From Ralstonia pickettii (lineage in GTDB: Bacteria > Pseudomonadota > Gammaproteobacteria > Burkholderiales > Burkholderiaceae): DNA of 64,000 nt. The number at the start of each line of letters is the position of its first letter. The first letter of the stretch is position 1. Positions 7,879-34,336 of this stretch are shown one piece after another. The DNA is taken from assembly GCF_000607165.1 (NCBI RefSeq), contig NZ_JFZG01000008.1, forward strand, positions 496,001 through 560,000, in the 5' to 3' direction. A program made the position numbers and the translations under genes. Under the pieces are notes generated by a model. The model saw nothing but the letters and a program-made list of their open reading frames with translations. It was not told the origin of the DNA and made no database searches.

Positions 7879-7884
7879 TTGTTG

Positions 7885-8107
7885 TTTTGTTTTTGCCTTG
7901 GTGGTCCATCCCCTTTTCGTTCCCTGCCGGGACCGACTCACTTTTCTTTGTCTTCCAAAGAAAAGTAAGCAAAAGAAAGGCGCGCCCGAGATGGCGACAT
8001 CCCCTTGAATTTGTGTGACCGTGCGGGGAAGGAGGCAAACTCGCTTCGCTCAAACAGGCCTCCTTCCTTTATCCGCCCGCTCACAAAAATTCAAGGCGCC
8101 ATCAAGG
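7885..8107 (+). repeat. Structured intergenic repeat, copy 1 (inverted relative to copy 2)
   Basis: A gene-free block made of two hairpins. The first is ACTTTTCTTTG/CAAAGAAAAGT around 7939-7967. The second is GGAAGGAGGC (8027-8036) with GCCTCCTTCC (8058-8067) around a 21-base loop holding ACTCGCTTCGCTCAAAC, with outer arms TTGAATTTGTG and CACAAAAATTCAA. The block ends GGCGCCATC. A diverged copy lies inverted at 8205-8428. Stem letters differ between copies but pairing is kept, while the loop and the AGTAAGCAAAAGAAA stretch are conserved. No open frame worth calling. Confidence 0.8.
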
Positions 8108-8124
8108 GCTCAACGTCAAAAGAG

Positions 8125-8154
8125 AAAGGCCAACCCATCGCGCGGTTGGCCTTT
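8125..8154. terminator. Central hairpin between the two repeat copies
   Basis: A perfect 11-bp stem, AAAGGCCAACC (8125-8135) with GGTTGGCCTTT (8144-8154), has an 8-base loop. It sits in the 97-base spacer of the inverted repeat pair. An A-rich left flank and a T-containing right flank would allow it to act as a bidirectional terminator after the M20 gene, but the T-run is short. Confidence 0.5.
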
Positions 8155-8204
8155 GTCGTTTGGGCTGGCGCTGAGATGGTTTGGCCTTTGACTTTCCTGC
8201 CTTA

Positions 8205-8428
8205 GATGGCGCCTTGAATTTCTGTTGCAGGGAGGAAAAAGGAAGGGAAACTGTTTGAGCGCAGCGAGTTTTTCCCTTCCCCTCCCTGCGACATAAATTC
8301 AAGGAATCTTTCGCCATCTCAGGCGCGCATTTCTTTTGCTTACTTTCTTTGGGCAAGACCAAAGAAAGTGGGTCAGCCCCGGCAGGGGATGAAACAAGGG
8401 ATGCACCACAAAAACAAAAAGCACGAAT
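8205..8428 (-). repeat. Structured intergenic repeat, copy 2
   Basis: Read on the minus strand this matches copy 1 over its length. It has the AGTAAGCAAAAGAAA stretch, a GAGATGGCGA box, a TTGAATTT arm, the conserved loop with ACTCGCTGCGCTCAAAC, and the end GGCGCCATC. Its main stem is GGAAGGGAAA (8241-8250) with TTTCCCTTCC (8271-8280), extended by GCAGGGAGG (8227-8235) with CCTCCCTGC (8281-8289). Four stem positions differ from copy 1 with compensating changes on the partner strand. Confidence 0.8.
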
Positions 8429-8526
8429 CCCCCCAACACCAACCACGAAACCAGCCACCAAGCGCCAGCCCTTAAGATTGCAGCACGTTCCATCAAGCCA
8501 ACAAGAGGGCCTAGAGCCCAAAACCC

Positions 8527-8877
8527 ATGCAGATCTACCACAACCCCCGCTGCTCCAAATCCCGCGCCGCCCTCGAACAAGCGCAATCCTTTACCGCAAA
8601 AAACGGAGAACAACTCGACGTCATCGAATACCTGACGACGCCACCCACGCTGGCTGACCTCAAGAAGCTCGCAGCGCAACTCGACACACCGCTGCGTAGC
8701 CTGATCCGCGAGAACGAAGACGAGTACGCGCAGCTCAATCTGGCCGATGCCTCGGACGACGCGCTGCTCAAGGCCATCGCAGCACATCCGAAGCTGCTGC
8801 AGCGTCCGGTGCTCGTTCGCAACGGCCGCGCCACCATCGGTCGCACGCCCGAGGCGCTCGACGCGTTTCTGAAGTAA
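8527..8877 (+). CDS. arsC: ArsC-family arsenate reductase-like protein
   Basis: 116 residues, the glutaredoxin-coupled ArsC fold. The catalytic Cys is at residue 9 in YHNPRCSKSRAAL. Downstream landmarks are VIEYLTTPPT, LIRENEDEY (first Arg) and RPVLVRNGRATIGRTPE (further Arg residues), matching the arsenate-binding arginines of the family. No arsR, arsB or arsH is nearby, so it may be a housekeeping paralogue rather than part of an arsenic operon. Confidence 0.85.
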   Translation: MQIYHNPRCSKSRAALEQAQSFTAKNGEQLDVIEYLTTPPTLADLKKLAAQLDTPLRSLIRENEDEYAQLNLADASDDALLKAIAAHPKLLQRPVLVRNGRATIGRTPEALDAFLK

Positions 8878-8934: not shown

Positions 8935-9002
8935 GGGGTGGCCGTATCTCGCTTTGCGCGAGGGCCGGGGCTGCGTCCGTCAAGACGCGCAAGGGCACCG
9001 GT

Positions 9003-9269
9003 TTATTCCAGGCCCATCCATCGGGCCATTTCTGACCCGAAGCCAACTGCCAGCAGGGCGGCAAGCACCACTGCCAGCGCCGCCGCGGTCGAGACCATGG
9101 CGACTTTCATGACGTCTGCGTCGTGGTGTGCGTTGCTGTGCGTGTGATGCAGATGCTGCGCACGCATGCTCAACGGAACCGCCTTCGCAGATGATTTGCG
9201 ATGCCAATGCAAGCGCTCCGTCATCGCTCGCAAGTGTTGCGTGTCAAACGCGTCACGGGAAAATCGCAT
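9003..9269 (-). CDS. Small membrane protein of unknown function
   Basis: 88 residues from the ATG at 9269, which follows a strong GGGAGGT site. The first 55 residues are soluble and His-rich (MRAQHLHHTHSNAHHDAD). One membrane helix follows near the C-terminus (VAMVSTAAALAVVLAALLAV), and the protein ends GSEMARWMGLE. The His cluster could bind metal, but this is only a suggestion. No family recognised. Confidence 0.6.
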   Translation of the reverse strand: MRFSRDAFDTQHLRAMTERLHWHRKSSAKAVPLSMRAQHLHHTHSNAHHDADVMKVAMVSTAAALAVVLAALLAVGFGSEMARWMGLE

Positions 9270-9543
9270 CGCGGTACCTCCCCGTTGTTGGCTGATAGCC
9301 GACGCCGGCACGCACCGGCGTCGGGGGCACGTGCGGCCCGAAAACGATACGGCAAGCAAATGGCGTATGCGAGTGGCTTTGCTTGTCGGCGCCGGGTGGC
9401 GCAGTCGTCTGGTCGCTCGCACAAGCCCAGCGTAGACGGGGGTTTGCGGCGCCGCAAGTTGCGTTGCGGCATGGTGCGCGCATCACGCGGGCAAGAGGCA
9501 AACCGCGTGCGGGTCTTCGCCAACTGCGTGATGTGCGCGGCGC

Positions 9544-13469: not shown

Positions 13470-13520
13470 ACCTCGCATGAACCTCGCTCTTCTTTCTTCC
13501 GGACTTCATTCAAGGACAGC

Positions 13521-14339
13521 ATGAAACTCTCGTCGCCTACGTTTGCCCGCTTCCGTCACACGGTCAAGCGCACCGCCGTGCTGGCCGCTCTGGCCGGCAT
13601 TACCGCAACGCAGTTGACCGCCTGCTTCCCGCTGTTTGCCGGCGCCGTGGCCGGCGGCGTGGCGCTCGCGACCGACCGCCGCCCGACCGCCACCCAGACC
13701 ATCGACCGCGGCCTGCAGATGGAAGCCGAGAACACGCTGATCTCGCGCTACGACGGCCGTGCCCACGTGAACGTGACGGTCTACAACCGCAAGGTCCTGC
13801 TGACCGGCGAGGCCGGCACCGAGCAGACCAAGCAGGAGATCGGCCAATACGCACAGAAGCTGCAGAACGCGCGTGAGGTCGTCAACGAGATCGTGGTGAC
13901 GCCGGTGTCGAGCACCTTCGGCTCGCGCACCAACGATACGTACATCACCACCAAGGTGAAGAGCGTGCTGGCCGGCACGGAAGGCGTGCCCTGGAACTCC
14001 ATCAAGGTGACGACCGAAGCACAGACCGTCTTCCTGATGGGCGTGGTAACCGAGGCCGAAGGCAACAAGGCCACCGAAGCCGTGCGCACGGTGGGCGGCG
14101 TGAACAAGGTCGTCAAGGTGTTCGACTACGTGAGCGAAGACGAGCGCAAGCGCCTGGACGCCAATGCCACGTCGACCAACGCGTCGACGGCGCCTGATGC
14201 GTCGCAAGGCACCCCGGCGCCGGCGCAAGGTACGCCGACGGCCACGCAGGCCCCGGCACCCGTCACATCGGCCTCGCCTGGCGTGACCGTGTCGCCGACC
14301 AACTCGCCGGCGCTGCCGCCGGGCAAGCAATTGCCGTAA
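13521..14339 (+). CDS. BON-domain lipoprotein/periplasmic protein (YraP/OsmY type)
   Basis: 272 residues. The signal region ends in TQLTACF, a possible lipobox. Two BON domains follow (about residues 60-130 and 135-210), with VNVTVYNRKVLLTGEA and IKVTTEAQTVFLMGVVTEAE each followed by a VGGVNKVV-type turn. The last 60 residues are low-complexity Ala/Pro/Thr/Ser. BON proteins bind phospholipid and maintain the outer membrane. It is 51 bases after yraN; no SIS-domain (DiaA/GmhA-like) gene sits between them. Confidence 0.85.
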   Translation: MKLSSPTFARFRHTVKRTAVLAALAGITATQLTACFPLFAGAVAGGVALATDRRPTATQTIDRGLQMEAENTLISRYDGRAHVNVTVYNRKVLLTGEAGTEQTKQEIGQYAQKLQNAREVVNEIVVTPVSSTFGSRTNDTYITTKVKSVLAGTEGVPWNSIKVTTEAQTVFLMGVVTEAEGNKATEAVRTVGGVNKVVKVFDYVSEDERKRLDANATSTNASTAPDASQGTPAPAQGTPTATQAPAPVTSASPGVTVSPTNSPALPPGKQLP

Positions 14340-14367
14340 GCCACGTCCGCAACATCGCCTCGCAAGG

Positions 14368-14394
14368 AACGCAGCCACCGTGCTGCGTTTTTTG
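14368..14394 (+). terminator. Rho-independent terminator after the BON gene
   Basis: AACGCAGC (14368-14375) pairs with GCTGCGTT (14382-14389) around a six-base loop and is followed by a run of T. It lies 28 bases after the stop. Confidence 0.85.
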
Positions 14395-14472
14395 TTGGCT
14401 GCGCGCATCACAGGGCACATGGCAGGCCGTGCGTGTTAGCGTATGACGCTTCCGCGACTTCGCAGCCCCCCG

Positions 14473-14829
14473 ATGCCCGTCGTCCACCGCCTTGCCACCG
14501 CAGCATTGCTTGCGACGCTGCTTACTGCCCCTGTGCCCGATATGGCCCATGCGGCTGATCGCCCGCCCACCAATCTGCAAGCCCGCACCTGGGCCGCCAC
14601 GTGCGCAAGCTGCCATCACGCCGATACCGCGCCCGGTGCCAAGCTCCCTGCGCAGACGTTGCTACCGCTCGCAGGCCGCTCGCAGGCCGAGCTGATCGAC
14701 GCGATGCAGGCATTCCGCAACGGCACGCGTCCGGCCACGGTGATGGGCCAGATCGCTCGCGGTTACGACGATGCGCAGATCGTTGCCATTGCCGGCTGGC
14801 TGTCGCGCCAATCGCAGGAGGCGCCATGA
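14473..14829 (+). CDS. c-type cytochrome subunit of a flavocytochrome c (FccA/SoxE-like)
   Basis: 118 residues from the ATG at 14473; the ATG at 14443 is an alternative. A cleavable signal ends near DMAHA. A single heme-binding CASCH lies about 40 residues in, with a later Met in TVMGQIARGYDDAQI as the likely distal ligand. It overlaps the flavoprotein gene by ATGA, which is the arrangement of sulfide:cytochrome c oxidoreductase, so it probably passes electrons from the flavoprotein to the respiratory chain in the periplasm. Confidence 0.8.
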   Translation: MPVVHRLATAALLATLLTAPVPDMAHAADRPPTNLQARTWAATCASCHHADTAPGAKLPAQTLLPLAGRSQAELIDAMQAFRNGTRPATVMGQIARGYDDAQIVAIAGWLSRQSQEAP

Positions 14830-16118
14830 GTGAATCGCTGCGCAAGGATCGACGCGCAGTCTTGCGCGCGCTTGGGGTGTCCGCGCTGGCCGGGCCGCTG
14901 GCCGCATGTGCATCGCTGTCGGGTGTGCGCAATGCGCGCGTTGTAGTGGTTGGCGGCGGGTATGGCGGTGCGACGGCAGCCAAGTATGTGCGCGTGTTTT
15001 CCGGTGGCCATGTCGACGTGACGCTGGTTGAGCCGAACGCCGCGTTCGTCTCGTGCCCGCTGTCGAATCTCGTGCTGTCGGGCGACCGCGACATGGCTTC
15101 GATCACCGTGCCGTATGACGCGCTGGTTGAGCGCCACGGCGTGCGGTGGGTGCGCGATCGCGTATCGGCCATCGACCTTGGCGCAAAGCAGGTGCGGCTG
15201 ACCGGCGGCGGCACGCTCGATTACGACCGGCTGATCCTCTCCCCCGGTATCGACTTCGTGCCGGGAGCAATCCCGGGTCTCGCCAATGCGGGCACTGCCG
15301 CGCAGGCGCCGCACGCATGGAAGGCCGGCATGCAGACGCTGGCGTTGCGCCATCGGCTCGAAGCCATGCCCAACGGCGGCACGGTGGCGATCAGCATTCC
15401 GCTGGCGCCGTACCGCTGCCCGCCCGCGCCATACGAGCGCGCGTGCCTGATCGCCCATTGGCTGCAGCGCGCCAAGCCGGATTCGCGCGTGCTCATCCTC
15501 GATGCCAACGACGACGTCACCTCCAAAGGTGCGCTGTTCAAGCGCGTGTGGGCCGAACGTTATCCACAGCACATTGAATATCGCCCGCAATACAACGCCG
15601 TCGACATCGATGCCACGGGCCGCGTGCTCAAGTTCGATGTTCAAGACGACGTGCAGGCCGATGTCGTCAACCTGATCCCGCCGCAGCGTGCCGGCGCGAT
15701 TGCCGTGCAAGCCGGGTTGGCGACGGCCAACGGGCGCTGGTGCGAGGTGGACTTCCTCTCGTTCGAATCGAAGGTGGCGCCGGGCGTGCATGTGATTGGC
15801 GATGCCATCCAGACCGCGCCGCTGATGCCCAAGTCGGGCCACATGGCCAACCAGCACGGCAAGGTGGCCGCCGCCGCCGTGGTCGCGATGCTGGCCGGCC
15901 ACGCGCCCGATGCATCACCGCTGTACACCAACACCTGTTACAGCTTTGCCACCCCGGAAGAGGCGATGCACGTGGCGACCGTGCACCGCTACGACGCGGC
16001 GGAGCACACCATGGTGACCGTGCCCGGCGCCGGCGGGCTTTCCGAGGCGCCTTCCGCAGCGGAGGGCAAGCTGGCGCAGGGCTGGAGCCGCGCCATCTGG
16101 TCGGACGTGCTCGGTTGA
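14826..16118 (+). CDS. Flavocytochrome c sulfide dehydrogenase flavoprotein (FccB/SoxF-like)
   Basis: 430 residues. The N-terminus has a twin-arginine-type signal (RKDRRAVLRALGVSALAGPL). A dinucleotide fold follows (ARVVVVGGGYGGATAAKYVR), then FVSCPLSNLVLSG and YRCPPAPYERACL, whose cysteines match the redox-active pair of the family, and GVHVIGDAIQTAPLMPKSG near the FAD end. The last about 80 residues are the Fcc C-terminal domain. It oxidises sulfide or a related reduced sulfur species in the periplasm and hands electrons to the cytochrome subunit encoded just upstream. Confidence 0.88.
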   Translation: MSESLRKDRRAVLRALGVSALAGPLAACASLSGVRNARVVVVGGGYGGATAAKYVRVFSGGHVDVTLVEPNAAFVSCPLSNLVLSGDRDMASITVPYDALVERHGVRWVRDRVSAIDLGAKQVRLTGGGTLDYDRLILSPGIDFVPGAIPGLANAGTAAQAPHAWKAGMQTLALRHRLEAMPNGGTVAISIPLAPYRCPPAPYERACLIAHWLQRAKPDSRVLILDANDDVTSKGALFKRVWAERYPQHIEYRPQYNAVDIDATGRVLKFDVQDDVQADVVNLIPPQRAGAIAVQAGLATANGRWCEVDFLSFESKVAPGVHVIGDAIQTAPLMPKSGHMANQHGKVAAAAVVAMLAGHAPDASPLYTNTCYSFATPEEAMHVATVHRYDAAEHTMVTVPGAGGLSEAPSAAEGKLAQGWSRAIWSDVLG

Positions 16119-16255
16119 ATGTGAGGCTGAAGGTGACGCAGAAGGTGAGGCCCCGGGCACAAACAATGCGCAAGATTGTGCAAGTCGTGTAAGCGGCCCG
16201 CGCCTACAGTGCGTCATCTGGCCGCACGGGCGGCCGTCCGAACCTTCCGATCATC

Positions 16256-17143
16256 ATGTCTCCCAAGGATCTGCTGCTGGCCCTGACCGTTGTGCTGGTG
16301 TGGGGCGTCAACTTCGTCGTCATCAAGGTGGGCCTGCATGGCGTGCCGCCTATGCTCCTGGGTGCGCTGCGCTTTGCGCTGGTCGCGTTTCCGGCCGTGC
16401 TGTTCGTGCCACGCCCCAAGATCGCGCTCAAGTGGCTGGTCGCCTATGGCGCCACGATCAGCTTCGGGCAGTTCGCGTTCCTGTTCTCCGCCATGTATGT
16501 GGGCATGCCGGCGGGGCTGGCCTCGCTGGTGCTGCAATCGCAGGCGTTCTTTACGCTGACGATTGCCGCCATCGTGCTGCGCGAGCCGATCCGCTGGTTC
16601 CATCTGGCGGGCATGGCGGTGGCGGCGGGCGGGCTGGCGATCATCGGCATGGCGGGTGGCGGCTCGGTCACGGGCATGACCACCGCCGGTTTCCTGCTGA
16701 CGCTGTGCGCGGCGTTTTCGTGGGCCAGCGGCAACATCGTCACCAAGCGGATCGGGCCAGTGAACGTGGTGAGCCTGGTGGTGTGGGGCGCCGCCATCCC
16801 GCCGATTCCGTTCTTCCTGCTGTCGTACTGGCTGGAGGGGCCGGAGCAGATTGCGCATAGCCTGGCGAACATCAGTGGGTCGAGCATCGGCGCGATCGTC
16901 TACCTGTCTTTTGGTGCCACCATCTTCGGCTACAGCCTGTGGAGCCGCCTGCTGGCGCGCTACGCAGCCAGCCAGGTCGCGCCGCTCACGCTGCTGGTGC
17001 CGGTGGTGGGGCTGGTGTCTGCCGCCGTGCTGCTGGGCGAGCGCCTCGTGCCCGCCCAATGGCTGGGCGGTGCGGTGGTGATGGCCGGGCTGCTGCTCAA
17101 CGTATTTGGCGGCCGGCTGGCGGCGCGGCGGGCGATGGCCTGA
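16256..17143 (+). CDS. EamA-type (DMT superfamily) transporter
   Basis: 295 residues with ten predicted membrane helices in two EamA repeats. The first begins ALTVVLVWGVNFVVIKVGL and the second begins GFLLTLCAAFSWASGNIVTK. Family members export amino acids or other metabolites. It sits between the fcc and sox genes on the same strand but with its own 137-base upstream gap and its own terminator, so a link to sulfur metabolism is only positional. Confidence 0.87.
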   Translation: MSPKDLLLALTVVLVWGVNFVVIKVGLHGVPPMLLGALRFALVAFPAVLFVPRPKIALKWLVAYGATISFGQFAFLFSAMYVGMPAGLASLVLQSQAFFTLTIAAIVLREPIRWFHLAGMAVAAGGLAIIGMAGGGSVTGMTTAGFLLTLCAAFSWASGNIVTKRIGPVNVVSLVVWGAAIPPIPFFLLSYWLEGPEQIAHSLANISGSSIGAIVYLSFGATIFGYSLWSRLLARYAASQVAPLTLLVPVVGLVSAAVLLGERLVPAQWLGGAVVMAGLLLNVFGGRLAARRAMA

Positions 17144-17162
17144 CGCCGCACCCCATCAGCAG

Positions 17163-17198
17163 CAAGCGCCCGGGCCGAAAGGTACCGGGCGTTTTGCT
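17163..17198 (+). terminator. Terminator after the EamA gene
   Basis: CGCCCGG (17167-17173) pairs with CCGGGCG (17185-17191), extended by AGCAA and TTGCT ends, followed by TTTT. It separates the EamA gene from the sox operon. Confidence 0.75.
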
Positions 17199-17311
17199 GT
17201 GGGGGCGACATAGGATTTGGCCTACTTCGGGCACAATACCGGGTCCAATCCCTACCCCTGCGACCATTGGCCCGCACACGCATGCGGGCAGCCTCGTCTT
17301 CTGGAGACCAC

Positions 17312-17659
17312 ATGAAGTTCGCCCCCACGCTCGCCGCTGCGGCGGTGCTGGCCGGCCTGGCGCTGTCCGCCACGCCCGCGCTGGCCACCGTTGACGCTGC
17401 CCGCGCGCTGTCCATCGCCAACCAGAACGCCTGCATGGGCTGCCACGCCGTAGACCGCAAGCTCGTTGGCCCGGCCTACCAGGACGTTGCCGCCAAATAC
17501 AAGGGCGATGCCGGCGCGCAAGCCAGGCTCATCAAGAAGGTGCGCGAAGGCGGCATGGGCAACTGGGGCCAGATCCCGATGCCGGCCAATCCGAAGATCG
17601 CCGATGCCGATCTGAAAACCGTGATCGACTGGGTGCTCGCAGGCGCCCCGGCCAAGTGA
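17312..17659 (+). CDS. Class I c-type cytochrome at the head of the sox operon
   Basis: 115 residues from the ATG at 17312. A signal peptide ends at TPALA. The heme motif is CMGCH, and the distal Met is in NWGQIPMPAN, the c8/c551 pattern. It is 10 bases before soxY and is probably the electron acceptor of SoxAX or a carrier to the oxidase. Confidence 0.87.
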   Translation: MKFAPTLAAAAVLAGLALSATPALATVDAARALSIANQNACMGCHAVDRKLVGPAYQDVAAKYKGDAGAQARLIKKVREGGMGNWGQIPMPANPKIADADLKTVIDWVLAGAPAK

Positions 17660-17669
17660 GGAACGGACG

Positions 17670-18140
17670 ATGAATGATGCAATCAACCTGAGCCGCCGCG
17701 ACGTGCTGCGCGCTGGCGCCATGATGGCGCTGCTGGTGTCCGCCGGCATCGCCACGCCGGCCCAGGCAGCCGAATGGAACAAGGCCGCCTTTGCCGTCAA
17801 GGGCGTGAACGAAGTGCTCAAGCAACTGGGCGGCGGCGCGGTTGAAAAGGGCGGCGCCGGCATCCAGCTCACCGCACCGGACATCGCAGAAAACGGCGCC
17901 GTGGTGCCGCTGGTCGTGACGAGCACGCTGCCCGGCACCGACCTCATCGCCATTCTGGTTGAAAAGAACCCGAACACGCTGGCCGCAACGTTCGCCATTC
18001 CGGCCGGCACCGACCCGTTTGTCAGCACGCGCGTGAAGATGGGCGAGACCTCGCAGGTCTACGCCGCCGTGCGCGCCAACGGCAAATGGGTGCTGGCAGC
18101 TAAGGAAGTAAAGGTCACCCTTGGTGGCTGCGGCGGTTAA
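17670..18140 (+). CDS. soxY: Sulfur carrier protein SoxY
   Basis: 156 residues. A Tat signal (LSRRDVLRAGAMMALL) exports the folded SoxYZ pair. The protein ends in GGCGG, the flexible arm whose Cys carries the sulfur substrate through the Sox cycle. The conserved core includes KNPNTLAATFAIPAGTDPFVSTRVKMGETS. soxZ follows after 18 bases. Confidence 0.95.
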   Translation: MNDAINLSRRDVLRAGAMMALLVSAGIATPAQAAEWNKAAFAVKGVNEVLKQLGGGAVEKGGAGIQLTAPDIAENGAVVPLVVTSTLPGTDLIAILVEKNPNTLAATFAIPAGTDPFVSTRVKMGETSQVYAAVRANGKWVLAAKEVKVTLGGCGG

Positions 18141-18158
18141 ACATCAGGAGAACACACC

Positions 18159-18470
18159 ATGGCAGACCCGATGCGCATTCGCGCAATGGAAAACGGCGGC
18201 ACCACCGACGTGAAGATCCTGATGAAGCACGACATGGAAACCGGCCAGCGCAAAGACGCGTCCGGCAAGGTCGTGCCAGCCTGGCACATCACCAACGTGA
18301 CGGTGCTGCACAGCGGCAAGACGGTGCTCGACGCGCAGTTCGGCCCCGCCGTGTCGAAAGATCCGTTCCTCAATTTCAAGTTCAAGGGCGGCGCCAAGGG
18401 CGACAAGGTTACGGTCACGTGGGTCGACAACCACGGCGACAAGCGCACCGACGAGACGTCTATCCAGTAA
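18159..18470 (+). CDS. soxZ: Sulfur carrier partner SoxZ
   Basis: 103 residues without a signal peptide; it is exported with SoxY. The family pattern is clear: KILMKHDMETGQRKD, PAWHITNVTVLHSGKTVLDAQFGPAVSKDPFL and KVTVTWVDNHGDKRTDE. It forms the heterodimer that presents the SoxY arm to the enzymes. Confidence 0.95.
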   Translation: MADPMRIRAMENGGTTDVKILMKHDMETGQRKDASGKVVPAWHITNVTVLHSGKTVLDAQFGPAVSKDPFLNFKFKGGAKGDKVTVTWVDNHGDKRTDETSIQ

Positions 18471-18486
18471 AGGCCCGGAGGCCCAA

Positions 18487-18942
18487 ATGCGACGCAGCTT
18501 CTTCCGTGTGACCGCCGCGCTGGCGGCCTTGGGTGTGGCCGGCAAGGCCGCTGCCCAGAATGCCCCGCGCGCTGGCGGCGCCGGTGCCCGCTACAAGGTG
18601 GTCTACCAGTTGAGCGAAGGCATCGACCAGGCCATGCGCGCCATCGGCAACCTGCGCAACCATCTGAACGGTGCGCCCGGCACGAAGATCGTGGTGGTGG
18701 CCTTCGGCCACGGCATCGAGTTTATGGTTGAAGGCGCCAAGGATGCGCAAGGCCGCCCGTTTGATGCGCCGGTGGCCGCGCTGGCCGCCATGGGCGTGGA
18801 GTTTCGCGTGTGCCATAACTCGCTGATGGCCTTCAAGGTGCCGGAAGACAAGCTGCTGCTCGAAGCCAAGGTGGTGCCCGCCGGTGTGGTGGAAATCACG
18901 CGCTTGCAGCAGGAAGAAGGTTTCGCCTATATCAAACCGTAG
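18487..18942 (+). CDS. Secreted DsrE-family protein in the sox operon
   Basis: 151 residues. An N-terminal signal with adjacent arginines (MRRSFFRVTAALAALGV) is followed by a DsrE/DsrF-like fold, YKVVYQLSEGIDQAMRAIGNLRN to VVVVAFGHGIEFMVEGA. One conserved Cys is in VEFRVCHNSLMAF, the position of sulfur-carrying cysteines in the family. It lies inside the sox operon, 16 bases after soxZ and about 20 before soxA, so a role as a periplasmic sulfur relay is plausible. Confidence 0.82.
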   Translation: MRRSFFRVTAALAALGVAGKAAAQNAPRAGGAGARYKVVYQLSEGIDQAMRAIGNLRNHLNGAPGTKIVVVAFGHGIEFMVEGAKDAQGRPFDAPVAALAAMGVEFRVCHNSLMAFKVPEDKLLLEAKVVPAGVVEITRLQQEEGFAYIKP

Positions 18943-18961
18943 GCGACCCACGGAGGGGACC

Positions 18962-19783
18962 GTGAAACACAAGACATGGACGATGGTGCTGGCTGCGGCG
19001 TTGGCAGCCGGCGGCGCCGTGATGGCATCCGCGCAGGATGCCAAGGACAGCACCGCCGCCGGCATCGCGCAGTACCGCGAAATGCTGGCTGACGGCAATC
19101 CGGCCGAACTCTGGGAAGCCGCTGGCGAAGAACTCTGGAAGAAGCCCGCCGGCCCGAAGCAGGCCTCGCTCGAAGCGTGCGACCTGGGCCTCGGCCCCGG
19201 CGTGGTGAAGGGCGCCTACGCCAAGCTGCCGCGCTTCTTCAAAGACACCGGCCGCGTGATGGACGCCGAACAGCGCCTCATGTATTGCCGCATGACGCTG
19301 CAGGGGCTGACCAAGGAAGAGGCTTCGGCGCGGCCGTTCTCGTCGCCGGGCAAATCGTCGGACATTGAACGGCTGATGGCCTACGTCGCCTCGGAATCGC
19401 GCGGCGCGGCCATCGACATTCCGCTCGCCCACCCCGAAGAAAAGCGCGTGTACGAACTCGGCCGCCGCATGTTCTTCTACCGTGGCGGCGCGTACGACTT
19501 TGCCTGCGCCACGTGCCATGCCCAGCCGGGTTTGCGCATCCGCCTGCAAGACCTGCCCGATCTGCTGACCGCCGACGGTGCGCGCTATGCGTATTCCACA
19601 TGGCCGGGCTATCGCGTCTCGCAGGGCGAGGTACGCACCATGCAGCACCGGCTGTACGACTGCCTGCGCCAGCAGCGCTTTCCGGAACCGCTCTACGGCA
19701 GCGAGGTGATCACCGCGCTGGAGATGTTCCTTGCCCGCAACGCCAACGGCGGCAAGATGGACGCGCCGTCCATCAAACGATGA
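18962..19783 (+). CDS. soxA: L-cysteine S-thiosulfotransferase subunit SoxA
   Basis: 273 residues from a GTG at 18962 that follows GGAGGGG. A signal peptide ends near ASAQD. The active heme is bound by CATCH, and the catalytic Cys ligand lies in YDCLRQQRFPEPLYGSE. In the N-terminal half the second heme site is absent, leaving two cysteines (EACDLG and MYCRMT) that probably form a disulfide, so this is the one-heme form. With SoxX it loads thiosulfate onto SoxY. Confidence 0.93.
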   Translation: MKHKTWTMVLAAALAAGGAVMASAQDAKDSTAAGIAQYREMLADGNPAELWEAAGEELWKKPAGPKQASLEACDLGLGPGVVKGAYAKLPRFFKDTGRVMDAEQRLMYCRMTLQGLTKEEASARPFSSPGKSSDIERLMAYVASESRGAAIDIPLAHPEEKRVYELGRRMFFYRGGAYDFACATCHAQPGLRIRLQDLPDLLTADGARYAYSTWPGYRVSQGEVRTMQHRLYDCLRQQRFPEPLYGSEVITALEMFLARNANGGKMDAPSIKR

Positions 19784-19791
19784 GGCCACGC

Positions 19792-20454
19792 ATGACTCGA
19801 CTGACCCCCATCGTGCTGACGGCGCTGACATTGGCGCTGGCTGCCGGCACCGCGCACGCAGCGGACGCCACCTCCCAGGCCGTCACCGCGCCCAAGCCCG
19901 ACGCAAAGGCCGACGCCGCGCTCGCCAAGGTGATCCACGAGAGCTTTGTCTCCAAGGGTCCGGCCACCGTGGAAGGCGTGACCGAGCGCGACGACGTGCA
20001 GAAGATCTGCAGCCAGTTTGCCGACCGCAACGCCGTGCCCGCCGCCGTGGCCAAGAAGCTGGAAGACGCGCAGCTCAAGACCATCCATTACCCGGCTGAC
20101 GACAAATGGCTGGGCGACTGGAAGGCCGGCGAGAAGACCGCCCAGAACGGCCGCGGCATGCAGTTCTCCGACCCGGCCGGCGGCGCGAACGGCGCCAACT
20201 GCTACGCGTGCCACCGCCTCTCGAAAGACGAAGTGTCTTACGGCACCATCGGCCCGTCGCTGTACCAGTACGGCAAGCTGCGCGGGGATTCGGAAGCGAT
20301 CCTGCGCTACACCTGGGGCAAGATCTACAACTCCAACGCGTATGCGGCGTGCTCCAACATGCCGCGCTTCGGGCACAAGGGCATCCTGACCGAGCAGCAG
20401 ATCCGCGACGTGATGGCGTTGTTGTTCGACCCGGCATCGCCAGTGAATCAGTGA
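19792..20454 (+). CDS. soxX: SoxX cytochrome subunit of SoxAX
   Basis: 220 residues from the ATG at 19792, which has a GAGG site six bases upstream. An ATG at 19780 overlapping the soxA stop is an alternative. A signal peptide ends AGTAHAA. The heme motif is CYACH after FSDPAGGANGAN, and the distal Met is in CSNMPRFGHKGILTEQQI. An N-terminal extension of about 90 residues precedes the cytochrome domain, as in longer SoxX types. Confidence 0.93.
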   Translation: MTRLTPIVLTALTLALAAGTAHAADATSQAVTAPKPDAKADAALAKVIHESFVSKGPATVEGVTERDDVQKICSQFADRNAVPAAVAKKLEDAQLKTIHYPADDKWLGDWKAGEKTAQNGRGMQFSDPAGGANGANCYACHRLSKDEVSYGTIGPSLYQYGKLRGDSEAILRYTWGKIYNSNAYAACSNMPRFGHKGILTEQQIRDVMALLFDPASPVNQ

Positions 20455-20474
20455 ACCAGTGACCCAATAACGCC

Positions 20475-20987
20475 ATGCACACGCTTCGACGGTTCCTGAT
20501 GTGGGCAGCAGCGGCGATGGTGTTTGCCGCCACGCAGTTTGCCAATCATGCACAGGCCGTTGAAGTGGGCGATGTGGTTGCGCTGCCCGACCTGCAGTTG
20601 CTCGATGGCACGCGCGTGCCGGGCGATGCGTGGCGCGGGCACCCCGTCATCATCGCCACGTGGGCATCGTGGTGCCCGTTCTGCGCGCTGCAGAACCCGC
20701 GCCTGCAAAAGCTGGTCGACGCCACGCGCGGTACTGACCTGCGCATTCTCACCATCAGCATCGACGCCAACCCGCAGCTCGCGAAAGACTACGTCGCCAA
20801 GCGCAACTTCACCTTTCCGGTGACGATGGAAACCGACGCGCTGTGCGCCGCCACCGGCCCGCGCAAGGGGCTGCCCGAACTGCTCGTGCTCGATGCCAAA
20901 GGGCGGGTGGTGCGCAAGGAAGTCGGCGAGATGCTTGAAGACGACGTGGCCGACCTGGCTCGCTACGCGCACAGCAACACACCATGA
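20475..20987 (+). CDS. soxW: Thioredoxin-like periplasmic protein (SoxW/TlpA type)
   Basis: 170 residues. A signal peptide covers about residues 1-28. The redox motif WCPFC (Cys67 and Cys70) sits in a TlpA/SoxW thioredoxin fold. It probably keeps SoxY or another Sox cysteine reduced. Its stop overlaps the soxB start by ATGA, so the pair is co-translated. Confidence 0.87.
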   Translation: MHTLRRFLMWAAAAMVFAATQFANHAQAVEVGDVVALPDLQLLDGTRVPGDAWRGHPVIIATWASWCPFCALQNPRLQKLVDATRGTDLRILTISIDANPQLAKDYVAKRNFTFPVTMETDALCAATGPRKGLPELLVLDAKGRVVRKEVGEMLEDDVADLARYAHSNTP

Positions 20988-22705
20988 ACCGCCGCGAATT
21001 CGTTCAAGCCCTGGCGATTGCCGCCGCCGCCGGCCTGCGCCTGACCGACGCCCACGCTGACACGCTCAGCTACGACGTACCGCGTTTTGGCAACGTCCAC
21101 CTGCTGCACTTCACTGACTGCCACGCGCAGCTGCTGCCCATCGAATACCGCGAGCCCAGCGTCAACCTGGGCGTGGCGCAATGGGCCGGGCAGCCGCCGC
21201 ATCTGGTGGGGCACGCGCTGCTCAAGCGGTACGGCATCGCGCCCGGCTCGCGCGCCGCGCACGCGTTCACGTCGCTCAACTTTACCGAGGCCGCGCGCCG
21301 CTATGGCCGCATGGGCGGCTTCGCGCATCTGGCCACGCTCATCAAGCGCCTGCGCGCCACGCGCCCCAATGCGCTGCTGCTCGATGGCGGCGACACATGG
21401 CAGGGCTCCGCCACCGCGTTGTGGACGAACGGCCAGGACATGGTCGACGCGGCCCTCGCGCTGGGCGTGGACGTCATGACCCCGCACTGGGAGATGACCT
21501 ACGGCGCAGACCGCGTGCGCCACGTGGTCGATCACGACTTCAAGAACAAGGTTGCCTTTGTCGCGCAGAACATCCAGACGGCAGACTTTGGTGATCCGGT
21601 ATTCGACCCGTATGTGCTGCGCGAGCTGAACGGCGTGCCGGTCGCCATCATCGGGCAGGCGTTTCCGTACACGCCCATCGCCCACCCGGCCGATTTCACG
21701 CCCGACTGGACCTTCGGCATTCAGGAAGAACGGCTGCAGAAGATGATTGACGAGGCGCGCGGCAAGGGCGCCAAGGTGGTCGTGCTGCTGTCGCACAACG
21801 GCATGGATGTCGACCTGAAGCTCGCCTCGCGCGTGCGTGGGTTGGATGCCATCCTCGGCGGGCATACGCACGATGCCGTGCCCGCGCCCGTCAAGGTCAG
21901 CAACCCGGGCGGCGTGACGCTTGTCACCAACGCGGGCGCCAACGGCAAGTTTGTCGGCGTGCTCGATCTGGATGTGCGCGGCGGCACCGTGCGAGACATC
22001 CGCTATACGCTGCTGCCCGTGTTTGCCGATCTGCTGCCGCCCGATGCGGCCATGACGGCGCTGATCAACCGCGTGCGCGCGCCGTATAAGGACAAGCTGG
22101 GTGAAACGCTGGCCGTCAACCGTGGCCTGCTGTACCGGCGCGGCAACTTTAACGGCACGTTCGACCAGCTCATCGTCGATGGCCTCATGCACGCGCAGGG
22201 CGCCGAGATTGCCTTCTCGCCCGGCTTCCGCTGGGGCACCACGCTGCTGCCCGGCGACGCACTGACCATGGAAGCGCTCATGGCCCAGACCGCCATCACG
22301 TACCCGGCCACCACGCTGACCGAGATGACCGGCGCGACCATCAAGACCGTGCTGGAAGACGTGGCCGACAACCTGTTCAACCCAGACCCGTACTACCAGC
22401 AGGGCGGCGACATGGTGCGCACGGGCGGCCTGCGCTACACGATCGACCCGATGAAGCCCATGGGCCAGCGCATTACCGACATGCGCCTGGGCCCGGGCGA
22501 CGGCAAGCCCATCGACGCCGACCGCCGCTACAAAGTGGCCGGCTGGGCCGCCGTATCGCCCGAAGCCCGCAAGGCAGGCGGCCGCCCCGTGTGGGACGTA
22601 CTGGCCGACTGGCTGCGCGACCAGCGCGAAGTGACCGCCGGGCCGCTCAACACGCCGCGCATTGTCGGCATGGAAGGCAATGCGGGCATGGAAAACGCAG
22701 GTTGA
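20984..22705 (+). CDS. soxB: Thiosulfohydrolase SoxB
   Basis: 573 residues. A Tat signal (MNRREFVQALAIAAAAGLRL) leads into a calcineurin-like phosphoesterase domain with LLHFTDCHAQLLP, LLDGGDTWQGSAT, LLSHNGMDVD and ILGGHTHDAVP, the dimanganese ligands. The 5'-nucleotidase-like C-terminal domain follows. SoxB releases sulfate from SoxY-bound thiosulfonate. It is the last gene of the operon; soxCD is not found next to it. Confidence 0.96.
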   Translation: MNRREFVQALAIAAAAGLRLTDAHADTLSYDVPRFGNVHLLHFTDCHAQLLPIEYREPSVNLGVAQWAGQPPHLVGHALLKRYGIAPGSRAAHAFTSLNFTEAARRYGRMGGFAHLATLIKRLRATRPNALLLDGGDTWQGSATALWTNGQDMVDAALALGVDVMTPHWEMTYGADRVRHVVDHDFKNKVAFVAQNIQTADFGDPVFDPYVLRELNGVPVAIIGQAFPYTPIAHPADFTPDWTFGIQEERLQKMIDEARGKGAKVVVLLSHNGMDVDLKLASRVRGLDAILGGHTHDAVPAPVKVSNPGGVTLVTNAGANGKFVGVLDLDVRGGTVRDIRYTLLPVFADLLPPDAAMTALINRVRAPYKDKLGETLAVNRGLLYRRGNFNGTFDQLIVDGLMHAQGAEIAFSPGFRWGTTLLPGDALTMEALMAQTAITYPATTLTEMTGATIKTVLEDVADNLFNPDPYYQQGGDMVRTGGLRYTIDPMKPMGQRITDMRLGPGDGKPIDADRRYKVAGWAAVSPEARKAGGRPVWDVLADWLRDQREVTAGPLNTPRIVGMEGNAGMENAG

Positions 22706-22752: not shown

Positions 22753-22828
<76 letters not shown>

Positions 22829-28433: not shown

Positions 28434-29417
28434 TTATTTCCCAGCCGAGTAGTTGAGGGGAATCCAACGGAAGCCATCCTTATCCGTCTGCAAGTGCCCT
28501 AGTCCCGGAAAAGGAACGTGGGCGGCGGCGAAAAGTATCTTGTCCTTGGCGATGCTGGTGAATTCCTTGATGCGTTCCTGTTCGGCCAATGGGCTGTTGC
28601 TATCGAACGAAACGGTGACCGTCGGATCCTCAAACTGAATGGCCGCGACATGCACGATGTCGCCCACGACCATCAAGCGACTTCCTTGGCTCTCGATCAT
28701 GTAACCCACGTGCCCGGGTGTATGTCCAGCGCTCTGGTACGCATGGATGCCGGGGCTCAGCTCTTGGTTGCCGTCAAACGGCCGCACGCGGCCTGCCCTG
28801 ATGTAGGGCTCCATGATCGCCATGGCGCGGCGATAGCTGCCTTTTTGGTCGCCGCGATTGCCCTCTGGCGCCTTGGCCATGTTCGCCTCGCTCAGCCAGT
28901 AATCCAGCTCACCACGATTGACGCGGACGATCGCATTGGAAAAGCGCATGTCTCCATCCGTCGTCAGCCCACCAATATGGTCTGCGTGCATGTGCGTGAT
29001 GTAGATTTCATCCACCTGGGACGGCGCGTAACCGGATGCCTTCATGTTGGCTGCCAGCCTCCCCAGGCGCGGGCCGAAGAGGTTGCCTGCGCCGGTATCG
29101 ATCAGAATCAGTTTCGGACCCGTATTGATCAGGAAGGCGTTGTAGGACGTTTCGAGCGGACTTTGCAGGTAATCCTCTGCCAGCACGTCGTCGACCTTCT
29201 GCGGTGTGGTGTTCGTCAGAAACTGGTCAACCGGCAATTCCAGTGTGCCGTCATTGAGTGCGGTGATCTCATAACCGCCCAGCATGAAACGGTAAAAGCC
29301 TGGCGCTGAGCTACGTGCAAGGGGAGCGGCCGCGTGGGCTGCAGACTGCAGCAGCACGGACATTGCCAGAAGGCTGCAGAGGGCAAACAGCTTGGTCATT
29401 GGATGTCGGTATTTCAT
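28434..29417 (-). CDS. Secreted MBL-fold metallo-hydrolase
   Basis: 327 residues from the ATG at 29417. A signal peptide (MTKLFALCSLLAMSVLL to AHAA) indicates the periplasm. Zinc-site motifs are THMHADHIGGLTTD (HxHxDH), AGHTPGHVGYMI and VVGDIVHV. The FKxxxGxxEIT-type opening (FYRFMLGGYEITALNDGTLEL) matches the lactonase/MBL subgroup that includes AHL-lactonase-like enzymes. It is followed on the same strand by nothing close; the dehydrogenase gene upstream (29507) is probably co-transcribed. Confidence 0.83.
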   Translation of the reverse strand: MKYRHPMTKLFALCSLLAMSVLLQSAAHAAAPLARSSAPGFYRFMLGGYEITALNDGTLELPVDQFLTNTTPQKVDDVLAEDYLQSPLETSYNAFLINTGPKLILIDTGAGNLFGPRLGRLAANMKASGYAPSQVDEIYITHMHADHIGGLTTDGDMRFSNAIVRVNRGELDYWLSEANMAKAPEGNRGDQKGSYRRAMAIMEPYIRAGRVRPFDGNQELSPGIHAYQSAGHTPGHVGYMIESQGSRLMVVGDIVHVAAIQFEDPTVTVSFDSNSPLAEQERIKEFTSIAKDKILFAAAHVPFPGLGHLQTDKDGFRWIPLNYSAGK

Positions 29418-29506
29418 GATTGCCTTTTCTATATCGGTGTCCGCATCGGCGTCTAAGCGGCGCAGCGGGAGTGCGGTTTGGGTTGACAGCAATATGGCCG
29501 CCTACT

Positions 29507-32048: not shown

Positions 32049-32071
32049 GCCCGATGGCGTTCTGCACCCCG

Positions 32072-32692
32072 CTACTGAGCCTGCAAAAACGCAGCAACCG
32101 CTTTCGCTTGGTCGTCCGACAGCGTGTGTGCAACGGCGCTCATCACGGGAGCGTTGGCGCGCGTGCCGTTCTTGAACACCGCAATCTGCCGTAAGAGATA
32201 GGCGTCATGCTGGCCCGCCAGCCTCGGGAACGTTGCGTTGCCCTGCGCTTGCGCCCCATGGCACGACGCGCATGCTGGTACGCCTTCCGCAGGCAGGCCG
32301 TGCTCGAAAATCTCTTTGCCGCGCGCCATCAGTGCCGGGTCACCCGCAGGGCCGGCAGGTGCAGTCTGCCGCGCATAGTATTCGGCCAGGGACGCAATGG
32401 TTGCGTCGTCCAGCTGCGATGCAATACCCCACATGAAGGCCTGTGCATCGGTCTCACCGCGGCCACGGGTGCGGAAGCCTTTCAACTGCGCTTCCAGGTA
32501 CTGCGGTACCTGTGCGTCCAGGCGCGGAAACATCGGCGCTTCGCTCTTGCCGTGCACCCCATGGCACGAAGAACACAACTGCGCGGCAAGCTTCTCGCCA
32601 TCTTGCGCGCCCGCCATGTTCGACCAGCCGATCATCGCCAACGCTGCCAGCGCGGTCAGCCAGACTCGCCTGGGCTGATGGAATCCTTTCAT
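32072..32692 (-). CDS. Diheme cytochrome c4
   Basis: 206 residues from the ATG at 32692. A signal peptide ends near NMAGA. Two cytochrome domains follow, with heme sites CSSCH (about residue 41) and CASCH (about residue 138), and matching Met ligand regions (QAFMWGIASQLDD, NAPVMSAVAHTLSDD). Cytochrome c4 carries electrons in the periplasm. It is 40 bases downstream of the Cyc2-like gene on the same strand, so it is the natural acceptor of that protein's electrons. Confidence 0.88.
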   Translation of the reverse strand: MKGFHQPRRVWLTALAALAMIGWSNMAGAQDGEKLAAQLCSSCHGVHGKSEAPMFPRLDAQVPQYLEAQLKGFRTRGRGETDAQAFMWGIASQLDDATIASLAEYYARQTAPAGPAGDPALMARGKEIFEHGLPAEGVPACASCHGAQAQGNATFPRLAGQHDAYLLRQIAVFKNGTRANAPVMSAVAHTLSDDQAKAVAAFLQAQ

Positions 32693-32732
32693 GGCGTTCT
32701 CCCCCCCTCGCATCTTCGCGCGTGACCTACGG

Positions 32733-34073
32733 CTAGAACATGAACCAGCCAAGCAGGTAAATCGTGTTGTTGTCGACCGCGTTTCTGCCGTTGCCGTCGT
32801 AATTGGCATGGGCGCCGTTGAACTTCAGGAACCACGTGTACTGCAACGCGAGCCTGATCTGCGGATGCGGTAAATAGTCCAGCTCCAGGATCACGCCTTG
32901 TGTGTCTGGTCGCCCGTTGGCACTGCCCGTCACAGGCGCTTGGGCGTACAGGCCGGGGTCTGCGTTGCCTGTTGTTGAAAAGTACGCGACCGACCCCCCG
33001 TACTTGCGCTGGTAGTAGTACGACGCTTTGGCTTTGAAGGTATCGAGATGATCGGTTGGGTTGGCCGGAGTGGGGCCCGCGCCGATGCCACCGCTCGGGA
33101 AGCTCGCCCGCCAGTTCTGTTGCTCGTGGATCCATGCCATCTGCGCCGTGAACGCATGGGTCATGGTCAAGTACTGGTACTGCGCGTCGAGCGCATAGTC
33201 TTTGAAGCGATCGGTTGGTGTGCCCGGCATGGTGTTGTCGGGGTACCGGTTGGCCAGCAACCCGAACGTGCCAAACATGACCGAATGCGAGCCCCACTCC
33301 TGGTTGTATGCCAGACGCCAGTACGGGTTCGCGCCGCTCAAGCGCGCAACGCCGCCCGGGGTTGCGGTGTCCTGCCCAGCACGGAACACGGAGAACGCCT
33401 GATCGGCAGTCCGATAGGCGCCCAGTTCTGCGTAGATATGGCGTTGCCAGAATGCGTATGCGCTGGCGCCTACCACCTGCTGCGCCAAACCACCGTCGAC
33501 AAGGGTGCCTGCCAGTGGAGGCACGCCGATGCTGGGAGCGGCATAGGGATACCCGAATGCCGGCGTGCTGTTCCACACGTCAGACACCGTCGGGTTGTTG
33601 TTGACCGTGACGCCGTAGATGAACTCGACGTCCTCGCGCGTGAGGTGCCATGCGGCGCGGATATCGGTGTTGTCCAGCGCGCTGTGGTGGGCAATACCGT
33701 CGTACGTCCACTGAGCGAAGGCACCCACGGGCCCCGCAATGCGCCCCGCATAGAACAGGCTTACCTGCTGCGGAACCGTGTCTCCGTTGCGCACGAAGTC
33801 GAAGTTGTCCTGATCGATCGTCCGCGTGTTGGTGCGCGAAATCTGCACCATGCCCGAGAGCGGAATCGTCTTGTTGTTGGCCAGCGTATAGCCGGTCATC
33901 TTGAAGAAGCGGCCGAAGGGGGTCAGTTCAGGAAAGCTGACGTGGCACGCCATGCATGCCATCCCGGTCTGACGCGCGAAAGCCGGTACCGCACTGGCTT
34001 GTCCCGACCACGCCAAAAGCGCACCGATCAGCAGCCCCGCGAGCGCACGGAGCGCAGTAATGAGACGTCGCAT
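32733..34073 (-). CDS. Cyc2-like fused cytochrome-porin
   Basis: 446 residues from the ATG at 34073. After a signal peptide (cleaved near GQASA) comes one heme site, Cys40-Met-Ala-Cys43-His44, in VPAFARQTGMACMACHVSFP, followed by ELTPFGRFFKMTGYTL. The rest alternates polar and aromatic residues (for example MVQISRTNTRTI, VSLFYAGRI, YAFWQRHIYAELGAY, IRLALQYTWFLKF) and ends in the aromatic LLGWFMF, as an outer-membrane barrel does. One heme followed by FGRxFK and a barrel of this length is the layout of Cyc2, which takes electrons from outside the cell. Recognition is from motif and layout. Confidence 0.72.
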   Translation of the reverse strand: MRRLITALRALAGLLIGALLAWSGQASAVPAFARQTGMACMACHVSFPELTPFGRFFKMTGYTLANNKTIPLSGMVQISRTNTRTIDQDNFDFVRNGDTVPQQVSLFYAGRIAGPVGAFAQWTYDGIAHHSALDNTDIRAAWHLTREDVEFIYGVTVNNNPTVSDVWNSTPAFGYPYAAPSIGVPPLAGTLVDGGLAQQVVGASAYAFWQRHIYAELGAYRTADQAFSVFRAGQDTATPGGVARLSGANPYWRLAYNQEWGSHSVMFGTFGLLANRYPDNTMPGTPTDRFKDYALDAQYQYLTMTHAFTAQMAWIHEQQNWRASFPSGGIGAGPTPANPTDHLDTFKAKASYYYQRKYGGSVAYFSTTGNADPGLYAQAPVTGSANGRPDTQGVILELDYLPHPQIRLALQYTWFLKFNGAHANYDGNGRNAVDNNTIYLLGWFMF

Positions 34074-34336
34074 GGTGTCCCTCCCCAATGTTTTTTTCGG
34101 TTTTTTCACCAGCACGTACGACCATGAAAGGCGCTATGGCCGCAGCTGTCAAACCTTCCGGCGGCATTCGCCTGATACGGATCAACTTATTTCGAATGCC
34201 ACAAGGCACGGGCGTGCCTGCAGAGAGAGGCGGCGCAACGGTTGTACGTTTGCGCGCTCAAAGAGGGGGAGCGGCGGACCAGTCGATCAGGTCGAACAGG
34301 TCGAAGAGGATTCAGCCAGAGTCGGTTGCCGCCGAG

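Follow-up and report, generated by a model that had tools for sequence, protein, structure and literature searches.

The Cyc2-type gene and its cytochrome c4 neighbor

We analyzed a 64,000-nucleotide stretch of Ralstonia pickettii (contig NZ_JFZG01000008.1, positions 496,001 to 560,000 of the forward strand; "the window"), and in particular a pair of genes that encode a Cyc2-like cytochrome (cyc2; protein P0001) and a diheme cytochrome c4. Papers are cited by their PMC identifiers. The genes and motifs of the pair are (positions within the window):

32733..34073, minus strand: cyc2, encoding a monoheme cytochrome of 446 amino acids with a predicted outer-membrane barrel fused to it (P0001, cluster 2-like Cyc2)
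33990..34073, minus strand: residues 1-28 of Cyc2, a putative signal peptide judged by eye and ending in ASA before VP
33966..33992, minus strand: Cyc2 signature AVPAFARQT, seen in the sequence (pattern AXPXFAR[QK][TY], from PMC8406198)
33942..33956, minus strand: heme c motif CMACH, with PEL three residues later, seen in the sequence
32693..32732, minus strand: intergenic gap of 40 bases between cyc2 and c4, from the sequence
32072..32692, minus strand: cyc1-like diheme cytochrome c4 of 206 amino acids, with a signal sequence by eye (best PDB match 1h1o, cytochrome c-552)

The cyc2 gene runs from an ATG at 34073 to a stop at 32733. The published criteria for Cyc2 are a length of at least 365 amino acids, a CXXCH motif, AXPXFAR[QK][TY] upstream of it (which is called unique to Cyc2), and PXL downstream (PMC8406198). 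P0001 has 446 amino acids, and a lone CXXCH (C40-H44) lies near its N terminus, behind the signal peptide that we read by eye; there are no cysteines elsewhere in the protein. AVPAFARQT ends three residues ahead of C40 (the spacing is printed as 5 amino acids upstream of CXXCH in PMC8406198). PEL is at +4 after CXXCH and continues as PEL-TPFGRFFK, and the protein ends in ...YLLGWFMF, with Phe as the last residue. Among 107 full-length relatives of P0001, 85 have P.[FY]AR[QK][TY], and all 107 have PXL within 10 residues of CXXCH. A preliminary description of this DNA had reported a 446-residue protein with one heme motif after the signal peptide, FGRFFK, and an aromatic end, as well as a c4 gene 40 bases further on and on the same strand; the sequence bears out each of these.

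The c4 gene (ATG at 32692, stop at 32072) encodes two CXXCH motifs and matches the Cytochrom_C domain twice, and by eye its product is probably secreted. The best of its 13 matches in the PDB is 1h1o (E = 1.8e-37; the next cytochrome c4 has E = 2.5e-30), which we take to be Cyc1 of Acidithiobacillus ferrooxidans. By sequence comparison, the c4 from the window is closer to 1h1o than to the other c4 proteins of known structure. If 1h1o is indeed Cyc1, then both are diheme c4 proteins and both are encoded by the second gene of their unit, but the gene in the window is not accompanied by genes for an aa3 oxidase. The c4 paralogs in the same genome match it partially and at no more than 52% identity.

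The close orthologs of P0001 in the Burkholderiaceae (group A, about 70-99% identical) share this arrangement. The stop of c4 is 650-680 bases past the stop of cyc2 and on the same strand in all 24 group A loci. (In locus L050, where cyc2 is split, we counted from its second part. A stricter rule based on the start of c4 gives 21 loci, as it misses L006 and L018, where the start codon is inside cyc2, and L050.) By the start-based rule, c4 is downstream in 10 of 11 loci from a more distant clade (group B); in L032 it is upstream. We also scanned a genome collection, with L066 as the first query sequence and with distant relatives as the aim. Cyc2 relatives are very widespread, with at least 589 stretches in the collection. 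The 80 listed rows are mostly from uncultured Acidobacteria, Bacteroidetes, Gemmatimonadetes, and Proteobacteria, and no record among these 80 is titled Acidithiobacillus. Of the 80 loci, 79 were used for counts of boxes (below) and neighbors. From all counts of boxes and neighbors, including that of the 24 group A loci, we left out short loci that duplicate a gene already counted and a near-copy, Caballeronia SBC1. Among these 79 loci with a Cyc2 open reading frame (ORF), c4 is directly downstream in 11, all titled Proteobacteria except for L155.

Both genes are under purifying selection: relative to the window, cyc2 had a ratio of nonsynonymous to synonymous substitution rates (dN/dS) of 0.05-0.13 in 8 comparisons, and c4 had 0.07-0.20 in the 7 comparisons that gave a value (1 was saturated). 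L050 and L023 were left out of the dN/dS estimates and of the trees that are described below. Because there are orthologs at about 70-99% identity in the same family, with low dN/dS and a fixed spacing to c4, the pairing is not due to chance.

Other carriers are found beside some cyc2 genes. A high-potential iron-sulfur protein (HiPIP) is encoded upstream of cyc2 in Caballeronia, and HiPIP takes or shares the neighbor's place in L063, L064, L074, and 4 of the 79 scan loci. In two loci from the host genus with cyc2 genes that are about 43% identical to ours, L055 (cyc2 at 7527-8876, HiPIP at 8994-9281) and L056, HiPIP is directly downstream instead of c4, so that one periplasmic carrier appears to have replaced another. 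The genome that contains the window has one HiPIP match, on the same contig and about 79 kb away. L091 and L092 (family f38) have two tandem short HiPIP-like ORFs ahead of cyc2; the one that was tested scored 20.8 bits, versus a Pfam cut-off of 22 bits. In L102 (genome G478, Cyc2 at 7443-6097), cyc2 is followed by genes for monoheme and tetraheme cytochromes (by eye, the latter is NrfH/NapC-like), which could provide another route from Cyc2 to the inner membrane.

The position of P0001 in the Cyc2 family

A search with P0001 found matches in 53 of 299 genomes from the host's family and in 88 of 398 genomes from its phylum. Most of the phylum matches (65 of 88) are from a single family (f39) with genomes of about 1.2-3.1 Mb, which we took for Mariprofundaceae by this pattern; "Mariprofundus-like" refers to this label. 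These match only the heme domain and some of the sequence behind it, to residue 187 at most, and most of the direct sequence matches end near residues 65-140. Five more match at the N terminus only. The 17 remaining genomes, besides the host, match most or all of the length of P0001 at 36-47% identity.

In a tree of 120 rows, the group A proteins (23 rows) form a single clade (support 100), and two other clades that are mainly from the same family, B and C, join them with support of 99. Of the 13 Mariprofundus-like rows, 12 are apart from groups A, B, and C, and the other (L085) is on a very long branch. (Another alignment, A2, had 53 rows. From the 80 scanned loci, 52 that are listed were used in A2 and in the large tree, and none failed our check for stop codons.)

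As an anchor on the acidophile side of the family, we ran a model for rusticyanin, with a cut-off of 146.7 bits, over 369 genomes of the class. One genome (G887) was above the cut-off, and G941 was next at 137 bits. A search of the G887 assembly with P0001 found no match, although one of its stretches (L258) resembles part of a rus operon, and we found no Cyc2 in the other stretches from the rusticyanin model either (L258-L260 and L262-L264). In G941, locus L261 encodes on one strand a Cyc2, a 195-amino-acid protein, COX2, COX1, a 189-amino-acid protein, CtaA, UbiA/CtaB, and a rusticyanin-like copper protein; COX2, COX1, CtaA, and UbiA/CtaB were assigned by Pfam, and the 195- and 189-amino-acid proteins have no match in Pfam. 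We call this a rusticyanin-type operon, with the caveat that its copper protein is the one that scored 137 bits, below the cut-off. The order printed for Acidihalobacter is cyc2-cyc1-cup-coxBACD-ctaA-ctaB-rus (PMC10654088), and the order in L261 is near to this, but the L261 operon lacks cyc1.

The Cyc2 from L261 matches P0001 with E = 1e-71 and is 42% identical to it over residues 99-445. The two share a clade against the Mariprofundus-like outgroup (support 100/99; the program warns of long branches at that split). A hidden Markov model (HMM) built from 73 relatives, with all rows from clades A, B, and C excluded, gave P0001 a score of 520 bits, as compared to 67 bits from an HMM of 12 Mariprofundus-like Cyc2 proteins. 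Because of the match to the Cyc2 of L261, the shared clade, and these scores, we place P0001 on the side of the family with the rus operons of acidophiles, which we infer to be cluster 2. A point against the role that we propose for the pair (below) is that the cyc2 of L261 has no adjoining c4 gene; the c4-like gene in that stretch is about 15 kb away.

Compared through L261, P0001 shares with the Cyc2 of Acidithiobacillus-type rus operons (cluster 2) a signal peptide, one heme, the motifs AXPXFAR[QK][TY]...CXXCH...PXL, and a c4-type partner, the last by comparison with the printed cyc2-cyc1 order. Unlike in those operons, there are no cup, coxBACD, or rusticyanin genes beside the cyc2-c4 pair, so the pair is not part of a rus operon: its neighbors are a LysR gene, a dehydrogenase gene, and others. 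The best match to the rusticyanin model in the host's own genome is weak (31.5 bits, versus the cut-off of 146.7). With the cluster 1 Cyc2 of neutrophilic iron oxidizers (Mariprofundus and Gallionellaceae), P0001 shares the motifs of the heme domain and a remotely homologous barrel part, but it is in a separate clade and the direct sequence match stops by residue 187.

The homology of the barrel part was apparent from profile comparisons. Past its heme domain, P0001 can be aligned to the Mariprofundus-like barrel along about 304 residues (HHalign in two directions: probabilities of 59 and 92%, E = 9e-5 and 6e-7), and three controls (CRP, LysR, and CcoN) gave probabilities of 0-0.1%. It weighs against the role proposed below that porin families have no detectable profile kinship to this part of P0001 (HHalign probabilities of 0.4-3.1%), and we rejected general porins as profile-detectable relatives, since the best probability was 3.1%. 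We also rejected a count of amphipathic strands as proof of 16 strands: there were 20, 16, or 10 peaks depending on the threshold, and the LysR control scored alike. As the count does not discriminate, the basis for the predicted 16-strand barrel is homology to proteins for which models have been published.

No Pfam or NCBIfam model matches P0001 at E = 0.1 and no chain in the PDB matches it at E = 1. With no curated family or solved relative, P0001 might be imagined to be a heme-bearing porin whose function is unrelated to Cyc2, such as a redox sensor or a channel for the uptake of small molecules. We consider this very improbable, given the exact Cyc2 motifs, the nearly full-length homology to the Cyc2 of L261, and the Cyc1-like partner. 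The preliminary description had named beforehand, as grounds for dropping its claim, that P0001 would best match a family other than Cyc2 whose partner is different; this was looked for and not found. Its central claim of a Cyc2-like fused cytochrome with its own c4 is upheld by the motifs, the homology to L261, the clade, and the c4 genes in 24 of 24 loci. Judged from the sequences, the identity of P0001 as a Cyc2-type fused cytochrome and its pairing with c4 are solid.

A candidate FNR/ANR-type box upstream of cyc2

The region upstream of cyc2 contains these candidate elements:

34172..34185, minus strand: FNR/ANR-type box TTGATCCGTATCAG, one mismatch from TTGATNNNNATCAA, about 100 bases upstream of cyc2 and conserved in the genus
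34147..34152, minus strand: TTGACA, a -35-like hexamer 19 bases past the box (TTGAC[AG] in same-genus orthologs)
34124..34129, minus strand: TTTCAT, a weak candidate -10 element by sequence, with a 17-base spacer

All 8 same-genus orthologs (from 7 genomes) have TTGAT[CT]C[AG][TC][AG]TCAG, followed by TTGAC[AG] at 17-19 bases. The flanks of this conserved box are otherwise little conserved, except in the three closest loci. In the window, the 17-base spacer to TTTCAT puts the center of the box near -61.5, which is a position that FNR/CRP-type activators use.

The box is also enriched upstream of cyc2 in other loci, but not all of them have it. TTGATNNNNATCAA with up to one mismatch is found upstream of cyc2 in 18 of 70 loci (0.52 expected from single-base shuffles), and TTGA-N6-TCAA is found exactly in 15 of 70 (the mean from Markov shuffles was 0.35, and in-gene controls had 0). 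TTGA-N6-TCAA is in 18 of 149 windows upstream of cyc2, versus 17 of 1124 windows upstream of other genes in loci of over 8 kb (Fisher p = 5e-9).

The host also has candidate regulators for such a box. It encodes an FNR with Cys14/17/23/116 (L188) and more regulators with similar cysteine spacing (L187, L189, and L190). The ccoN gene of a cbb3 oxidase (C6:15319-16716) is about 4 kb from this fnr and has the one-mismatch box TTGACGCACATCAA just upstream. We propose that cyc2 is probably switched on at low oxygen through the FNR/ANR-type box. In the literature that we searched, which left out most subscription journals, we found no description of control of cyc2 by FNR; in passages from papers that contain both words, FNR was part of a reference title, stood for ferredoxin-NADP reductase, or was mentioned with the ccm/nap operon.

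Several observations count against this proposal. A scanner for sigma-70 promoters finds none upstream of cyc2. TTGA-N6-TCAA is present in just 3 of the 79 scan loci, where the mean from 100 Markov shuffles was 0.59 and their maximum was also 3. (The three loci are titled Proteobacteria, Betaproteobacteria, or Pseudomonadota.) Among the close orthologs, 11 of 24 loci have a box with up to one mismatch and 13 do not, and the two loci from the host genus with 43%-identical cyc2 also lack the one-mismatch box. All of these statistics ignore relatedness, including the Fisher p of 5e-9. Finally, the number of one-mismatch boxes in the window alone is at chance level (2 seen, 0.84 expected). We rejected a one-mismatch box in the 64-kb window, taken alone, as evidence, since about one is expected by chance.

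FNR-type boxes are typical of alternative respiration, and the box upstream of cyc2 raises the possibility that the system works outwards, with c4 and Cyc2 passing electrons from respiration to Fe(III), quinones, or some other acceptor outside the cell whenever oxygen is scarce. Homologs of Cyc2 at 36-37% identity are found on plasmids of Acidiphilium, which reduces Fe(III). Redox proteins of A. ferrooxidans are also mentioned in the context of anaerobic ferric iron reduction (PMC10937671). Nevertheless, we consider outward flow to be quite unlikely: the Cyc2 proteins that have been characterized are Fe(II) oxidases (PMC8406198, PMC7029218), a single heme in a narrow barrel suits a soluble donor, and the operon in L261 contains genes for a terminal oxidase.

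Proposed role and distribution

We narrowly favor the view that cyc2-c4 is a low-oxygen-induced entry for electrons from Fe(II) that supplements organotrophic growth. The Cyc2, of the cluster 2 type, and the Cyc1-like c4 that is dedicated to it would form an electron entry from the outer membrane to the periplasm. Soluble Fe(II), or another small reductant like it, would enter the barrel and reduce the single heme; this heme would hand the electron to the diheme c4, which would take it to the inner membrane, where the most likely recipient would be the cbb3 oxidase that the genome encodes. The two genes would be co-transcribed from a promoter activated by an FNR/ANR-type regulator under low oxygen, a condition in which Fe(II) is oxidized only slowly by chemical means. 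The energy would add to that from organotrophic growth and would not support carbon fixation. The direction of flow, the substrate, the barrel, the docking of c4, co-transcription, the step from c4 to cbb3, and activation by FNR are all predictions. Also, according to PMC8406198, the function of Cyc2 has been verified for only a few members, and its role in organisms without known iron oxidation is open, which should temper this proposal.

The other genes of the host fit with this role. We found no match to the large subunit of RuBisCO in the host genome. The window has sox genes at 13500-22705 on the plus strand, with hits above the NCBIfam cut-offs for SoxY (17670-18140), SoxA (18884-19783), SoxX (within 19513-20454), and SoxB (20984-22705). 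The nearest of these to the pair is soxB, which ends about 9 kb from c4, and an SQR-like gene in the sox region (14601-16118) is below its cut-off. Given the lack of a RuBisCO match, the cbb3 oxidase gene, and the sox genes, the host would appear to be an organotroph with lithotrophic additions, and if so, electron entry from Fe(II) is plausible.

The absence of a match to RuBisCO would also fit with a surface oxidation of Fe(II) that serves protection (by limiting Fenton chemistry) or the handling of iron (as Fe(III) for siderophores) instead of energy, as would a unit that is dispensable and patchy (see below). This seems unlikely to us because detoxification alone would not need a periplasmic c4 beside cyc2, which is present in 24 of 24 loci, and because control by low oxygen would be the wrong way round for avoiding Fenton chemistry.

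Among the 16 listed genomes from the host genus, 6 have intact group A copies of cyc2 (one has two copies) and 7 have none. The remaining genomes have one split copy, one 79-residue remnant with a TGA, and one with the 43% type only. (The decayed copies are in L050, which has two ORFs for cyc2 and an intact c4 adjoining, and at G121:C1:95447-95683, where a stop interrupts the 79-residue remnant.) As the pair is intact in just 6 of 16 genomes and broken in two more, it is dispensable, and this patchiness counts against our proposal.

We also compared seven same-genus ortholog loci to the window with BLASTN. In four of them (L040, L041, L050, and L006), the pair alone matches, and the sole match is 32071-34155 or less, which is the two genes and a short leader. 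The flanks that were compared are 1.7 to 10.3 kb in L040, L041, and L050, and just 0.8 and 1.4 kb in L006; L040 and L041 both come from a single fragmented genome, which has two copies. Beyond the pair, L039 shares with the window a collinear 1.5-kb stretch at 69% identity and a short one, and the loci from the nearest species (L037 and L038) share more of the flanks. The picture is of a unit that is useful yet dispensable and occurs at different places, which suggests that it moves.

A broader version of this idea is that cyc2-c4 is a portable, FNR/ANR-controlled cassette that moves among the Burkholderiaceae, that sulfur-oxidizing organoheterotrophs use it to burn electrons from Fe(II) via cbb3 under microoxia, and that low-oxygen control is general for proteobacterial Cyc2 of cluster 2. 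We put this forward as a tentative and rather doubtful extension.

The preliminary description drew attention to the pair on the grounds that its host is no classical iron oxidizer. This was overstated because the genome collection has at least 589 Cyc2 stretches and Cyc2 in such groups is already in print. One published set was so rich in sequences from Burkholderia, Ralstonia, and Xanthomonas that several were removed (PMC8406198), and Cyc2 from organisms without known iron oxidation are in published trees (PMC8406198, PMC7029218). AfCyc2 and AfCyc1 connect to homologs from Burkholderiales (PMC10654088). Cyc2 of cluster 2 is also reported in the Leptothrix-Sphaerotilus group, with homologs of cyc1 in several Leptothrix genomes (PMC11412304); like our host, these are Burkholderiales that use organic carbon and have both kinds of gene. 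Cyc2 and Cyc1 in heterotrophic Burkholderiales were thus already known; what is newer is the apparent switch by oxygen. We think that the regulatory link and the compact two-gene unit are the parts worth following. Since the unit has just two genes and a clear promoter signal, and since some members of the family can be cultivated, the role of Cyc2 outside of the known iron oxidizers, which the Cyc2 literature states is open (PMC8406198), can be tested directly. If our proposal is correct, then the use of Fe(II) among common heterotrophs is wider than thought.

As for the surroundings, the G+C content of the window is about 0.66 ahead of a tRNA-Ala(CGC) gene at 22753-22828, drops to about 0.60 directly behind it, and climbs again near 47 kb, and 22753-47000 is possibly a plastic region. 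We rejected the idea that the tRNA-Ala at 22753 marks the edge of an island, as the last 20 bases of the tRNA have no second copy in the window. Within this region, at 28434-29492 on the minus strand, is a gene for a metallo-hydrolase that resembles the AidB-type N-acyl homoserine lactonases (184 bits, versus a cut-off of 360) and has, by eye, a signal-like N terminus.

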